Source: Verrucomicrobiota bacterium (GTDB taxonomy: Bacteria; Verrucomicrobiota; Verrucomicrobiia; Chthoniobacterales; UBA10450). From it: a stretch of 40,724 nucleotides of DNA. The notes below the pieces were generated by a model, which was given only the letters and a program-made list of their open reading frames with translations, made no database searches and was not told the DNA's origin. How positions within the stretch are numbered: position 1 is the stretch's first letter; the number at the start of each line of letters is the position of its first letter. The translations under genes were made by a program, and so were the position numbers. The stretch covers positions 1 to 40,724 of the forward strand of contig QHQO01000161.1 of NCBI GenBank assembly GCA_003221195.1, written 5' to 3'. This document shows positions 567-5,298 of this stretch, piece by piece.

Positions 567-1607
567 ATGACCCCGGCATCTGTACCGCCCGGTGTTCCGG
601 GGAGCAAGCCGAAAAAGCTCCTCGATCAGACGCGTGATGTCCTGCGGCTGAAACATTACAGTCTTCGCACCGAACGGTCGTATTGTGATTGGATCGAGCG
701 TTTCATCCGTTTCCATCGACTGCGCCACCCCAGGGAAATGGGCGTGACGGAGATCACGCAATTTCTCACGCATTTGGCGAGAATCGGGAATGTCTCGGCG
801 GCGACGCAGAACCAAGCGTTGAGCGCATTGTTATTCCTCTATCAGAAAGTGCTCAAACAAGAAGTTGGCTGGATTGATCAGGTAGAGCGAGCCAAGAAGC
901 CCAAGCGCATCCCGATGGTGCTGACCCGGGATGAGGTCCACAAAATCTTCGCGCATATGCACGGGACGCCGCGACTTATGGCTGGGTTACTTTACGGAAG
1001 CGGCCTTCGTCTAATGGAATGTGTTCGCTTACGAGTAAAGGACGTGGATTTCGGATATGCGCGAATCACAGTGCGCGACGGTAAAGGCGCGAAAGATCGC
1101 CTAACGATGTTGCCAGTGAATCTCGCAGCGCCCTTGGAGCGACATCTGGCGAAAGTGAAAGCGCAACACGAGCAAGATCTCGACGATGGATTTGGCGAAG
1201 TGTATTTGCCCGGCGCGTTGGCATGCAAATACGAAAGTGCGGCTCGATCCTGGGCCTGGCAATTTGTGTTCCCATCATCGCGAATTTCGATAGACCCCCG
1301 TACAGGCCTACGCCGCCGGCACCATGTCGACGAGAATGTCTTGCAAGTGGCAGTGAAGCACGCGGTACGCGCTTCCGGAGTTCACAAGCCAGCCACTTGT
1401 CATACGCTACGTCATTCGTTCGCGACGCACTTGTTGGAAAACGGATATGACATTCGCGCCGTGCAGGAGCTGCTCGGACATTCACCCCGTGAGATAACAA
1501 AAACTTATGCCAAGGTATTGCTATGTGTATGTCTTGCGTTCGCTAAAGGACAATCAGTTTTATGTTGGATTGACCAGAGATGCGCCTGTGCGAGTGCAAC
1601 AACATAA
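567..1607 (+). CDS. intI: integron integrase (tyrosine recombinase), C-terminus altered by insertion
   Basis: Integron-integrase hallmarks: YLPGALACKYESAARSWAWQFVFPSSRISIDPRTGLRRRHHVDENVLQVAVKHAV (IntI-specific patch), HTLRHSFATHLLENGYDIRAVQELLGHS. Probable ATG at 567 (ORF track start 321 overlaps attI/cassette). C-terminus after LLGHS is encoded by inserted DNA. Confidence 0.85.
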   Translation: MTPASVPPGVPGSKPKKLLDQTRDVLRLKHYSLRTERSYCDWIERFIRFHRLRHPREMGVTEITQFLTHLARIGNVSAATQNQALSALLFLYQKVLKQEVGWIDQVERAKKPKRIPMVLTRDEVHKIFAHMHGTPRLMAGLLYGSGLRLMECVRLRVKDVDFGYARITVRDGKGAKDRLTMLPVNLAAPLERHLAKVKAQHEQDLDDGFGEVYLPGALACKYESAARSWAWQFVFPSSRISIDPRTGLRRRHHVDENVLQVAVKHAVRASGVHKPATCHTLRHSFATHLLENGYDIRAVQELLGHSPREITKTYAKVLLCVCLAFAKGQSVLCWIDQRCACASATT

Positions 1608-1768
1608 CAACGGGCTGGTTACCTCAACCAAGAAACGCACGCCGTTTGAGCTTGTTTATTGGGAAGGCTGTCTCAACGAAAGTGACGCAGGCACGACGTG
1701 AGAAATATCTCAAAAGTGCGTGGGGCAAACGTTATATCAAAGCCCGATTGCGGCAATATCTCACGGGG
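1485..1768 (+). mobile_element. short TIR-bounded insertion carrying a GIY-YIG ORF, interrupting intI
   Basis: Perfect 12-bp inverted termini CCCCGTGAGATA (1485-1496) / TATCTCACGGGG (1757-1768), extendable to 15/16 (1481-1496 vs 1757-1772). Removing 1485-1773 restores the intI frame and consensus. Confidence 0.75.
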
Positions 1769-1771
1769 TAA
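1507..1771 (+). pseudogene. GIY-YIG nuclease family protein, single frameshift
   Basis: Frame A: MPRYCYVYVLRSLKDNQFYVGLTRDAPVRVQQHNNGLVTSTKKRTPFELVYWEGCLNESDA; frame B: ARREKYLKSAWGKRYIKARLRQYLTG*. One extra G near 1690 separates the halves. YVYVLRS/FYVG and REKYLK match small stand-alone GIY-YIG proteins. Confidence 0.8.
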
Positions 1772-1773
1772 AG

Positions 1774-1848
1774 GACGTGAGCACTACGATGATTTACACG
1801 CACGTGCTCAATAAGCCGGGGATTGGAGTAAAGAGCCCGCTGGATTAA
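1774..1848 (+). pseudogene. displaced original 3' end of intI
   Basis: Translates to DVSTTMIYTHVLNKPGIGVKSPLD*, the canonical IntI C-terminus with catalytic Tyr; out of frame with the upstream intI ORF because of the insertion. Confidence 0.9.
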
Positions 1849-1908: not shown

Positions 1909-4900
1909 TCAGGCCCGCACCGGCACGCTGGCGGTGCGCTCGAGTTTGCCCCAGCTTACCCAGGCGCCTTTGATCGCGCGCAGGATCGCTTTCCAGATGC
2001 AGTAACTCAGCATCGGACGGTAAATCAGGCGCATCGGTAAAATGCGCCAGGCGCGCAGGATCGGTTCGCGTTCCAGAATGCAGGCGAGCGTGGCGAGAAG
2101 CACGTCCATCGCCAGGAATGTGATCACGAACGGCAGCACCGCATTCCATGTGCCGAATGGGAGCGAGGCAAGCAGGAACAAGTCTACCATCGGCGTAATG
2201 GCCACCAGAATGATCTGGAAAAACCAGATACTCGGCAAACTGAACCAGCCGAGCGCGCGATAGTTCCAGTTGAACACCATGTCGCGATGTTTCCATAAAC
2301 ATTGCAGCGTGCCATAGGCCCAGCGAAATCGTTGTCGTGCAAGTGTGCGCACACTTTCGGGCGCTTCTGTCCACGCAATCGCGTCGGGCACGTAAACGAT
2401 GCGTTGCCGATGCCTGTGCAACGTGAGCGTCAGATCGGTGTCTTCGGCGAGCGTTTGCAGACTCAGCCCGCCCGCTTCATCGATTGCATCCTTGCGTACT
2501 GCGCTGATCGCGCCGGGGACGACGGTGATGCAATCCCAGCGGGTGTAAGCGCGCCGGTCCAGGTTAAAACCGCACGTGTATTCCAAAGCCTGACACCGCG
2601 CGATGAACGTGCGCAAGTTGCCGACCTTCGCGTGACCTGACACAGCGCCGATGCGCGCATCAGCGAATGGCTCAAGCAGGCGCGGGAGCGTATCGCGCTG
2701 ACATTGTGTATCAGCATCAATGAAAACAATGATGCCGTGACGCACAGCGGCCAGGCCGCGTTGGAGAGCTTGCGCCTTCCCACGGTTTTCCTGTCGCAAT
2801 AAGCGAACACGCGGCTCGCTGTTCGCAGCGCGCTCCACTTCGGTGGCAGTTGCGTCCCGCGAGCCGTCATCCACAACAACGACTTCAATTTCGCCTTTAT
2901 AGTCGGTGGCAAGAAGTGTGCGCAAAGTTTCGGCAATCACTTTGCCTTCGTTGTAGGCAGCAATCACTACACTGACTGGCTCCGTGAAATTTGTCTTTGG
3001 TCCGCGTCGAAAACGATAAGCAAGCCAGATAACAATCAGCGTGCGAACGACCACAAGCGCCGTCGCCACGATCATGAACGCCCAAAGAAATTCCTCGATG
3101 GTGTGGTAAACGCGAAAGCCGGTGCTGCTTACCAGACGCGTGAGCGATTGCCCATTATTTTGCACGACCGGCATCAACGCGTCGCGTGTCGTGCCCAGCA
3201 GCGTGCTCAAAGGCACCACGGTATCGCCCCGCTTATGCAGCCAATCCAAAATGCGCGGAAGCGCTTCCACTGTTTGGGAACGGTCTCCACCTGCATCGTG
3301 CAGCAAAATGATGCTGCCATCGCGACGTTGTTGCTTTACGCGCTGCAGGATGACGTCCGCGCCCGGTTTTGACCAATCCTGCGGGTCGATACTCTCCAGA
3401 ACGATGAGATAATTGAGGTCTTCCGCGATCTTCAGCGGTGTCAATTCACTCAGTTGCGTTGGACTGCTATCAGCGGCGTAAGGCGGACGAAACAATGTGG
3501 TGGCGCGACCTGTTATCGTTTCGAGCAAAAGCTGCGTCGCATTCAGCTCTACCCGGATATGTTCGGGCCAGCAGAGCGCGAGATTGGGATGATAGTAAGT
3601 GTGGTTCCCGATCTCGTGCCCTTCGTTAACGATGCGACGAACAAGATTTGGGTATCGTTCCGCGTTCACTCCCACGAGAAAAAAGGCCGCTTTCACATTT
3701 GCTGCTTTGAGAATGTCTAAAATCTTTGGCGTCCATCGTGGGTCGGGGCCGTCGTCAAAAGTGATTGCGACCTGATGCTCGCCGCCAGCGCCCTGGTGAT
3801 AAAGCGTTGGGAATTCTGCAAACCTCACGTACTTCGCCGTGAGATAGCCCTCCGCGTCCACAGCGAGTTTTCGCCTCCCGTCGGTGCGATCCTCGTCAAC
3901 AGTGACAATTTCGCCGTCGCCGACATCGGTTATTGTGTCGGTCGATTTTATCAGTTCGAGCGCCTGCCGCGTCTGATTATCCAAATTGAATTCGCGGGAG
4001 ACATTTAACGCATCCCAAATCGCCGGGTCTTCGCTGCCGAGCCGATAAAGGGCGAACCCGCCAGCCTTCTTATCGCGCACCTCGCGCAGTTGGTTAACAA
4101 ACGTGACCGCATCCAGAAACCAGACGGCATGCTCCTTATCTTCATCCTGAAAATAAAAATACGGGCTGTAAGCCGGGCCTCGCACTTCCGCGCTCTCGAT
4201 TTCGGCGTCATTAGCGCGGCTCATCGCTTCCGAAAAACTGATCATCTCAGCTTTTCGTCCGCCGATCGTCCAATCGTATCCGTAACTGCCGATTGCGAAG
4301 ATCCATTGCTTCGTGTCGGCATCCTCCAGCAGGCTGTGCAGCCAGCCTTCAAACCACGAGCGCGATGCCAGCGGCCCGGGCGGATCCGTGTCCGAGGTTT
4401 CGTCAAACAACATCGCTACAAAACGATCGACGTTATCGGAAAGCGCCTCGAAATCGATGTAATCCAATTCCTGGTTAGGCTGAACGCACAGCCAAAGCTC
4501 CTTGTTATCGTCGTGCAACGCGTCAGCAAACTTGTCGATGAATCCAGTGATGTCTTTTTTGTAAGCCGGGTCGATTTGCTGCCAGTCGACCACAACGCCC
4601 GCTGCTTTCGCGTTGCGCAAGACGGAAAGCACACGCTGGATAAACCGGTCCTGTCTTTGCGCCGGTCCGTGCGCGAGATTTTCAATCGCTTCCGGCTCCC
4701 ACGTGTCACCGACAAGATTTGTCAGCAGCGGCAGAAGCGCGATGCCCTTGTTTGCGGTCAGTTTCGATAGCCGGGTGTCTCCGTCGATTTGTAAATCGCC
4801 CAAGCCATCGATCACGGTCATCCATTCCGGGCAGAGATGTGTAATCTGTCCTGCGTGTTCCTCGAGCGACGCGTAGCTGTACGGATCACCGTTCCCGTAG

Positions 4901-5298
4901 AACGCCAGGCGCACTTCGTTATTGGGCGATTTCTTCGCCGAAAGCTTGCGGGGTGAAGGCGCCGGCGCCGCGCCGGCAAGCTTTCTCGCCGCTTGTCGCG
5001 CTTGGGCGAATTTCTGCCACAGCAACGAACTTGGAGACAATTGGTCGGCCGGATTTTGCTTTTGCAACGCTTTCAACTGGCCTTTCAATTGTCGCAGTGA
5101 AAACGGCACATTCATTTTCGGCGTGACGAAAAGCGTCTGAACAAACACGACCGTCCCGAGAAAAAATAGTACGCTCGCAATAAGGAGGATCAGACGCAGG
5201 CGCGGCCAACGCTTTCCCGTCGGATCGGAGAAAACGAACGGCGTGACTTCTTCTGGGGGGAACTCCCGCATGCGGTGCCTATAATCGCTCAAGCGCAA
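1909..5298 (-). CDS. fusion protein: TM + GH18-like domain + polysaccharide deacetylase (CE4/NodB) + family 2 glycosyltransferase with C-terminal TM helices
   Basis: HQVAITFDDGPDPRWTPKILDIL...EIGNHTYYHPN (NodB motifs); VSVVIAAYNEGKVIAETLRTLLATDY...VVVVDDGSRD...RQRFRWAYGTLQ (GT2 QxxRW-type); N-terminal VRLAFYGNGDPYSYASLEEHAGQITHLCPEW...GVVVDWQQID resembles GH18. Confidence 0.88.
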   Translation of the reverse strand: MRLSDYRHRMREFPPEEVTPFVFSDPTGKRWPRLRLILLIASVLFFLGTVVFVQTLFVTPKMNVPFSLRQLKGQLKALQKQNPADQLSPSSLLWQKFAQARQAARKLAGAAPAPSPRKLSAKKSPNNEVRLAFYGNGDPYSYASLEEHAGQITHLCPEWMTVIDGLGDLQIDGDTRLSKLTANKGIALLPLLTNLVGDTWEPEAIENLAHGPAQRQDRFIQRVLSVLRNAKAAGVVVDWQQIDPAYKKDITGFIDKFADALHDDNKELWLCVQPNQELDYIDFEALSDNVDRFVAMLFDETSDTDPPGPLASRSWFEGWLHSLLEDADTKQWIFAIGSYGYDWTIGGRKAEMISFSEAMSRANDAEIESAEVRGPAYSPYFYFQDEDKEHAVWFLDAVTFVNQLREVRDKKAGGFALYRLGSEDPAIWDALNVSREFNLDNQTRQALELIKSTDTITDVGDGEIVTVDEDRTDGRRKLAVDAEGYLTAKYVRFAEFPTLYHQGAGGEHQVAITFDDGPDPRWTPKILDILKAANVKAAFFLVGVNAERYPNLVRRIVNEGHEIGNHTYYHPNLALCWPEHIRVELNATQLLLETITGRATTLFRPPYAADSSPTQLSELTPLKIAEDLNYLIVLESIDPQDWSKPGADVILQRVKQQRRDGSIILLHDAGGDRSQTVEALPRILDWLHKRGDTVVPLSTLLGTTRDALMPVVQNNGQSLTRLVSSTGFRVYHTIEEFLWAFMIVATALVVVRTLIVIWLAYRFRRGPKTNFTEPVSVVIAAYNEGKVIAETLRTLLATDYKGEIEVVVVDDGSRDATATEVERAANSEPRVRLLRQENRGKAQALQRGLAAVRHGIIVFIDADTQCQRDTLPRLLEPFADARIGAVSGHAKVGNLRTFIARCQALEYTCGFNLDRRAYTRWDCITVVPGAISAVRKDAIDEAGGLSLQTLAEDTDLTLTLHRHRQRIVYVPDAIAWTEAPESVRTLARQRFRWAYGTLQCLWKHRDMVFNWNYRALGWFSLPSIWFFQIILVAITPMVDLFLLASLPFGTWNAVLPFVITFLAMDVLLATLACILEREPILRAWRILPMRLIYRPMLSYCIWKAILRAIKGAWVSWGKLERTASVPVRA

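Follow-up and report, generated by a model that had tools for sequence, protein, structure and literature searches.

Analysis of the window, a stretch of 40,724 nucleotides from a Verrucomicrobiota bacterium (GCA_003221195.1, contig QHQO01000161.1), revealed an integron integrase gene (intI) that is interrupted by a short element with terminal inverted repeats and a GIY-YIG nuclease ORF. The identity of the interrupted gene, already named in the original prediction, was confirmed with TIGR02249 (E=2.4e-126). The locus contains the following features.

567..1480, + strand: 5' part of the host intI, reading to ...VQELLGH (TIGR02249; Phage_integrase PF00589; match within the same genome at C19:618-1520)
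1481..1496, + strand: left terminal inverted repeat, TTCA-CCCCGTGAGATA (repeat search; identical sequence at the ends of homologous elements)
1485..1768, + strand: element core CCCC...GGGG (limits from empty sites and paralogous copies)
1507..1701, + strand: catalytic half of the GIY-YIG ORF, 64 aa up to the frameshift stop (PF01541, E=1.3e-11; comparison with intact relatives)
1702..1771, + strand: C-terminal half of the GIY-YIG protein in the shifted frame, ending ..KYLKSAWGKRYIKARLRQYLTG and a stop codon in the right repeat (ORF 1580-1771; alignments)
1757..1772, - strand: right terminal inverted repeat, TATCTCACGGGG-TAAA on the + strand (repeat search; conserved in homologues)
1771..1848, + strand: 3' part of the host IntI, KDVSTTMIYTHVLNKPGIGVKSPLD and a stop codon, which holds the catalytic tyrosine (uninterrupted relatives read GHKDVS; tblastn junction 274/276)

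The near-perfect repeats predicted at the ends were recovered: TTCACCCCGTGAGATA (1481-1496) and TATCTCACGGGGTAAA (1757-1772) are 16 nt long, complementary at 15 of 16 positions (94%), and separated by 260 nt, and their 12-nt core (1485-1496 and 1757-1768) is perfect. The inner ORF had been described as a GIY-YIG gene with its YLTG codons and stop in the right arm. The family assignment stood (PF01541), but comparison with intact relatives showed that the reading frame shifts near 1690; the window copy is therefore perhaps non-autonomous and possibly dead. It is the sole copy with repeats in its own genome (3.1 Mb, 276 contigs). Removal of 1485-1773 had been expected to restore the host frame. 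The frame and the net insertion of 289 bp were correct, but the exact junctions were not: intact integrase relatives read GHKDVS rather than GHSDVS, and the host sequence there is CA-N-AAG-GAC, so that the serine codon is part of the element, which places the actual junctions near 1480/1481 and 1770/1771. We agree that the window site shows no target-site duplication. Two observations concern the neighborhood of intI. Upstream of the gene, GCCTAAC (3-9) and GTTAGGC (138-144), about 130 nt apart, form an attC-like pair; the first positions of the window thus probably belong to a small cassette array of that integron. Beside intI, positions 1909-5298 of the - strand encode a protein of 1129 aa that resembles, by eye, a fusion of glycoside-hydrolase-like, polysaccharide deacetylase, and glycosyltransferase parts with membrane segments.

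The nuclease has a length of about 85 aa. An alignment of 24 diverse sequences revealed that Y8, Y19, H33, and E53 are invariant and R29 nearly so, with the residue spacing of GIY-YIG enzymes such as I-TevI. The AF2 model (pLDDT 90) had its best PDB fold matches in UPF0213 (1zg2) and Slx1, and 1zg2 was also the closest solved structure by sequence (E=1.9e-4). The subfamily has a C-terminus of its own, ..WGKRYIKNRLxNYLTG, and in most copies the right arm encodes the YLTG and the stop codon. A search of NCBIfam returned no family above the cut-off for the nuclease, and PHROG gave no match. For the pairs L111/L113, L087/L103, and L086/L094, dN/dS was about 0.09 to 0.13 (e.g., 0.049/0.556 and 0.057/0.538), which indicates purifying selection on the nuclease. 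Slx1 is a structure-specific nuclease that cuts branched DNA, and a hairpin or cruciform formed by the repeat would thus be an attractive substrate for the element-encoded protein.

The distribution of the repeats was analyzed by comparison of genomes, mostly MAGs. All eight of the closest homologues (54 to 75% identity; in sister species, among 39 relatives) were flanked on both sides by the repeat, which was absent from the more distant GIY-YIG genes checked in relatives. The exact 16-mer occurred in 12 of 35 genomes of the genus and in 2 of 289 of the phylum sample, and the reversed pattern had no match. For a wider view, 80 homologous loci were collected from GTDB genomes regardless of their flanks. 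They came from Verrucomicrobia, Bacteroidetes, Ignavibacteria, KSB1, Planctomycetes, Cloacimonadota, Omnitrophota, Deltaproteobacteria, Blastocatellia, and several Patescibacteria, and homologues with these ends thus occur in about ten phyla. Of the 80 loci, 66 had a strong inverted repeat in their flanks (score of at least 10), compared with 0 of 240 shuffles. Copies of the GIY-YIG gene within these repeats, as the original prediction implied, were thus found at many unrelated loci, and the GIY-YIG gene was the only recurrent ORF between the ends. Repeats were not clear around eight GIY-YIG relatives (L101, L128, L130, L131, L136, L140, L143, and L304). A crude check of the remaining GIY-YIG homologues of the phylum sample, in which about half of the ORFs were not located, confirmed repeats for G271. 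Phage, plasmid, and viral contigs yielded no copy with repeats and one partial plasmid match of 42%.

The end consensus is TTYA-CCCCGTGAGATA, with CCCCGTGAGATA, CCCCGTTAGATA, CCCTGTTAAATA, CCCCGTGAAATA, and others as variants; these differ in GTGAG, GTTAG, GTGAA, or GTTAA, with GTGAG the commonest. Both arms carried the identical variant at 75 of the 75 loci with both arms detected, in a comparison that tolerated up to two mismatches and in which a few arms are therefore weak. Usually, only one of the two arms is coding. The variants still matched where the right arm lies outside the ORF (L132, L147, L150, L152 to L155, L159, and L160). On a protein tree from which the C-terminus had been removed, and which has few columns and weak support, the left-arm variant required 9 changes, compared with 20.2±0.85 for shuffled labels. 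The end variants thus follow the nuclease lineage. It was also considered whether the internal palindrome of each repeat (TCAC-CCC-GTGA) acts as a functional hairpin; it is not kept in the GTTAG variants.

Empty sites were obtained from sister species and by codon reconstruction in interrupted genes. The limits that they define coincide with the repeats to within a few bases, in line with the boundaries originally predicted. At Site A, the empty sequence is 'acgcagTGAAgaaa' and the filled one is 'acgtag-TTCACCCC..GAGG-TGAA-gaaa'. At the LLGH/K site of the integrase, empty genes read 'CAC AAG GAC', and L081 and L082 are filled as 'CA-TTCA..GGGG-TAAA-'; the window copy (L001) has one extra A. 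In L108, L112, L126, and L100, a host TTCA or TTTA is kept on the left and TRAA is gained on the right; in L120, L124, L135, and L085, a host TGAA or TAAA is kept on the right and TTCA is gained on the left. The outer 4-mer (TTYA or TRAA) therefore belongs to the host at one end and to the element at the other, so that the moving unit is CCCC...GGGG plus one 4-mer. These junctions give a rule: insertion takes place at a TTYA tetranucleotide, which may lie on either strand, the net gain is the CCCC...GGGG core plus 4 bp, and no regular target duplication arises.

At most arms the 4-mer is TTTA or TTCA, and at many a purine precedes it. The near-identical L159 and L160, which occupy different loci, differ in the left 4-mer (TTCA and TTTA) and share TAAA on the right, as expected if one 4-mer is host-derived and the other element-derived. 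Junctions were off by about 1 nt at L001, L031, L109, L084, and MetF, and the fit was poorer at L149 and L106. Equal 4-mers flank 5 of 71 GIY copies and 3 of 24 short units; L129 and L145 are flanked on either side by TGAA, and the two 4-mers are likewise identical at L215 and L218. A pairing rule between host TTYA and element TRAA was unsupported by the counts (23 TTCA/TAAA, 5 TTCA/TGAA, 6 TTTA/TGAA, and 6 TTTA/TAAA).

Examination of the interrupted genes revealed a bias. A tyrosine recombinase adjoins 27 of 85 GIY-YIG copies, and at least 17 of the 85 split an integron integrase whose protein sequence resumes within about one residue (within six at L149). These insertions occupy about nine positions, near residues 15, 48, 54, 127, 141, 196-200, 251-253, 274, and 277, and all point in the direction of intI. 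The genomes hold roughly 0 to 5 such genes of about 1 kb in 3 to 7 Mb, so random insertion would place well under 1% of copies there. The integron integrase is thus a strongly preferred target. Some same-site copies are probably related by descent, so that independent events are fewer than copies; L001, L081, and L082 are divergent elements at one identical integrase site. In the right flank of L108, the last ~23 codons of intI recur downstream of the insertion (gaps of 138 and 387 nt), a pattern suggesting that the end of the integrase was partially duplicated.

Besides the integrase, the YhcG/DUF1016 nuclease recurs as a host, with about 10 copies recognized by eye from motifs such as AGQMN and LVAIELK; insertions lie at several conserved motifs (L055/L137, L100, L106, L119, L120, L129, L135, L141, and L145). 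In L055, the frame is open through the insert and gives a 506-aa ORF. By a rough ORF criterion, the upstream ORF was co-directional in 55 of 61 cases. Two further sites were observed. In several species, an element or short unit lies at a C-terminal site of a dehydrogenase-like gene, NKEAF/K followed by the stop (L027, L047, L061, L090, L105, and L138), for which L068 is the empty allele. In Galbibacter sp. EGI 63066, an isolate, two near-identical GIY-YIG relatives that lack clear terminal repeats (L130 and L131) follow the GGAGF motif of two sugar epimerase-like genes; the insert is succeeded by an intact 5' end of the gene, a layout also seen for homing genes that restore their target.

The same ends were also found on units without a gene. 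Solo units of 64 to 67 bp occurred in unrelated places (L062, L061, and beside L027 and L047). The pattern CCCCRTKAGATA was present in 43 of 46 nuclease-holding genomes, and its reversed control had no match. Repeat copies numbered 211 in a Cloacimonadota bin, 66 in Bacteroidetes GWA2_32_17, 41 in a 0.8-Mb Harrisonbacteria bin, and 39 in another genome, with a maximum of about 100 pairs of gene-less units in a single genome. Inspection of 40 stretches revealed mostly paired ends 46 to 110 bp apart with differing interiors, and arrays of short units with GGGG-TTCA-CCCC or GGGG-TGAA-CCCC junctions. All seven multi-copy genomes searched for the nuclease hold a GIY-YIG homologue with adjoining repeats. 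In G350, most short units read have GTTAG ends and the best GIY-YIG copy has GTGAG, which counts against movement by the GIY-YIG nuclease. In this Cloacimonadota genome, a repeat-bounded unit (L224, G350:C15, 143-250) encloses a complete tRNA-Val (CAC) gene, the sole match in an Rfam search of the units; units may thus be able to acquire or transport genes.

These data make it likely, as far as comparison of sequences can tell, that the window copy belongs to an IS-like element family whose sole gene encodes an ~85-aa Slx1/UPF0213-like GIY-YIG nuclease and whose ends are 12- to 16-bp repeats of TTYA-CCCCGTGAGATA or sister variants. The comparative data also lend support to the original proposal of a putative mobile unit made of terminal repeats and a GIY-YIG nuclease without a classical transposase. 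We infer that the GIY-YIG protein itself performs the movement. The nuclease would recognize the repeat, probably folded into a hairpin or cruciform, and would cut both the element ends (TTYA^CCCC) and the target (TTYA^). The strand CCCC...GGGGTRAA, excised or copied, would then be attached 3' of TTYA in the host, whose repair functions would complete the insertion. Short units would move in trans, as REPINs are thought to do with RAYT, and copies would persist where host transcription carries the ORF. The GIY-YIG enzymes known to us hydrolyze DNA without strand transfer, so that the joining step would need a host function or a new activity.

IS200/IS605-type transposition yields the same insertion geometry, and for this reason the main rival is that PATE- or REP-like units are moved in trans by a resident HUH Y1 transposase (IS200/IS605 or RAYT), with the GIY-YIG gene as passenger or accessory. 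IS200/IS605 elements and PATEs share with the element the insertion 3' of a short tetranucleotide, the lack of a regular duplication, the supply of one 4-mer by the element, the small size, and trans-mobilized short forms; palindromic short units and tandem arrays also fit, and Y1_Tnp is present in 29 of 33 host genomes. However, Y1_Tnp (PF01797) was not found in G364 (41 repeats), G372 (9 repeats), G376, and G377, all small MAGs, and four Y1 loci examined lacked such repeats. The ends co-vary with the phylogeny of the GIY-YIG protein, whose gene is the sole recurrent one inside. The element has neither a Y1 HUH TnpA nor a TnpB. The ends of IS200/IS605 are subterminal hairpins and not terminal inverted repeats, whereas the ends of the element are inverted repeats of each other, which allows either orientation relative to the target. 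We give this rival a small chance of being correct. REPIN-RAYT (TnpA-REP) systems (e.g., PMC8266576 and PMC8049555) resemble the element in their high-copy, short, palindromic paired units, tandem arrays, one or few nuclease genes within the same repeats, and co-evolution of enzyme and repeat. In contrast to the element, RAYT (PF01797) is an HUH tyrosine enzyme; the units of the element have heterogeneous interiors (one with a tRNA gene) and also lie inside genes. On this evidence, the element works like a REPIN or IS200-type system but belongs to neither, its enzyme coming from another superfamily. A homing-type process, in which the nuclease introduces double-strand breaks into conserved sites of genes and the element is copied in by recombination or repair, with the repeats aiding repair or protecting the ends rather than serving as transposon ends, is possible but on balance unlikely. 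The preference for conserved motifs of integron integrases and YhcG, the divergent elements at one integrase site, and the Galbibacter relatives all speak for it. GIY-YIG homing endonucleases (I-TevI and free-standing Seg-type enzymes) share the catalytic fold and residues, the insertion at conserved motifs, and the selfish persistence. Against it stand the many unrelated insertion sites, the gene-less high-copy derivatives, and the sole common target, a 4-mer with a preference for a preceding purine, for which flanking homology is unnecessary. The element, unlike those enzymes, has terminal inverted repeats and neither an intron nor room for one (compact copies have ~25 to 45 nt beyond the ORF). 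Since insertions favor conserved gene motifs, homing can be reconciled in part with movement by the GIY-YIG protein.

The remaining explanations are weaker. It is very unlikely that the units are non-autonomous MITEs of an unrecognized DDE transposon with a captured GIY-YIG gene; terminal inverted repeats are common to both, and the short derivatives resemble a MITE family, but no longer unit with another protein gene was seen among the loci examined, the fixed-length target duplication is absent from most empty sites, and the nuclease, which is under purifying selection, travels with the ends across phyla. Origin as an integron gene cassette, or by IntI-driven insertion, is hardly credible. 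Some ends contain GTTAGAT, which is similar to the attC core GTTRRRY; integrases are the most frequent host, and an Aeromonas integron has a cassette with a GIY-YIG ORF (PMC10609294). This explanation is contradicted by the boundaries, which lie at TTYA/CCCC and not at the G/TT of attC sites; the core-like boxes are inverse in order to those of attC, the commonest variant (GTGAG) has no GTT, and insertions occur inside the intI coding sequence and in many other genes. A chance inverted repeat, or a coding artefact of the conserved YLTG C-terminus encoded in the right arm of most copies, was rejected as having a negligible probability, because the noncoding left arm matches the right at variable positions, arms persist outside the ORF, and none of the 240 shuffles scored. 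A group I intron or known RNA around the ORF was also rejected (no Rfam match; <50 nt of noncoding DNA in compact copies).

The closest solved structures by sequence and fold belong to UPF0213/Slx1-like proteins (1zg2 and Slx1), but these are cellular repair proteins or of unknown role and are not known within repeats. Neither the element nor its nuclease had a match in Rfam or PHROG or one above the threshold in NCBIfam. A search limited to the open-access literature, without preprints or subscription papers, revealed neither a bacterial GIY-YIG element bounded by terminal repeats nor a relevant paper containing the repeat sequence. The element family is thus apparently undescribed. To our knowledge, autonomous prokaryotic transposable elements use DDE, HUH, or serine/tyrosine recombinase chemistry or reverse transcriptases. 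The fullest form of the reading is evenly poised in our estimate: a new class of prokaryotic transposable element with a single-domain, ~85-aa GIY-YIG nuclease as sole mobility protein, hairpin-folding inverted-repeat ends, strand insertion 3' of TTYA, gene-less units spread in trans, and integron integrase genes preferentially broken across several phyla.

If this reading is true, another kind of mobilizer would be at work from Verrucomicrobia to Patescibacteria, at high copy, and its elements of ~275 to 295 bp would be among the smallest autonomous ones known. It would explain many of the small GIY-YIG genes ending in YLTG in MAGs, and it would raise the question of how a plain hydrolytic nuclease can drive insertion. 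The data suggest that an enzyme that simply cuts DNA can take the place of a transposase. Through its bias for integron integrases and YhcG nucleases, the element family inactivates gene-capture engines and perhaps engines of defense.
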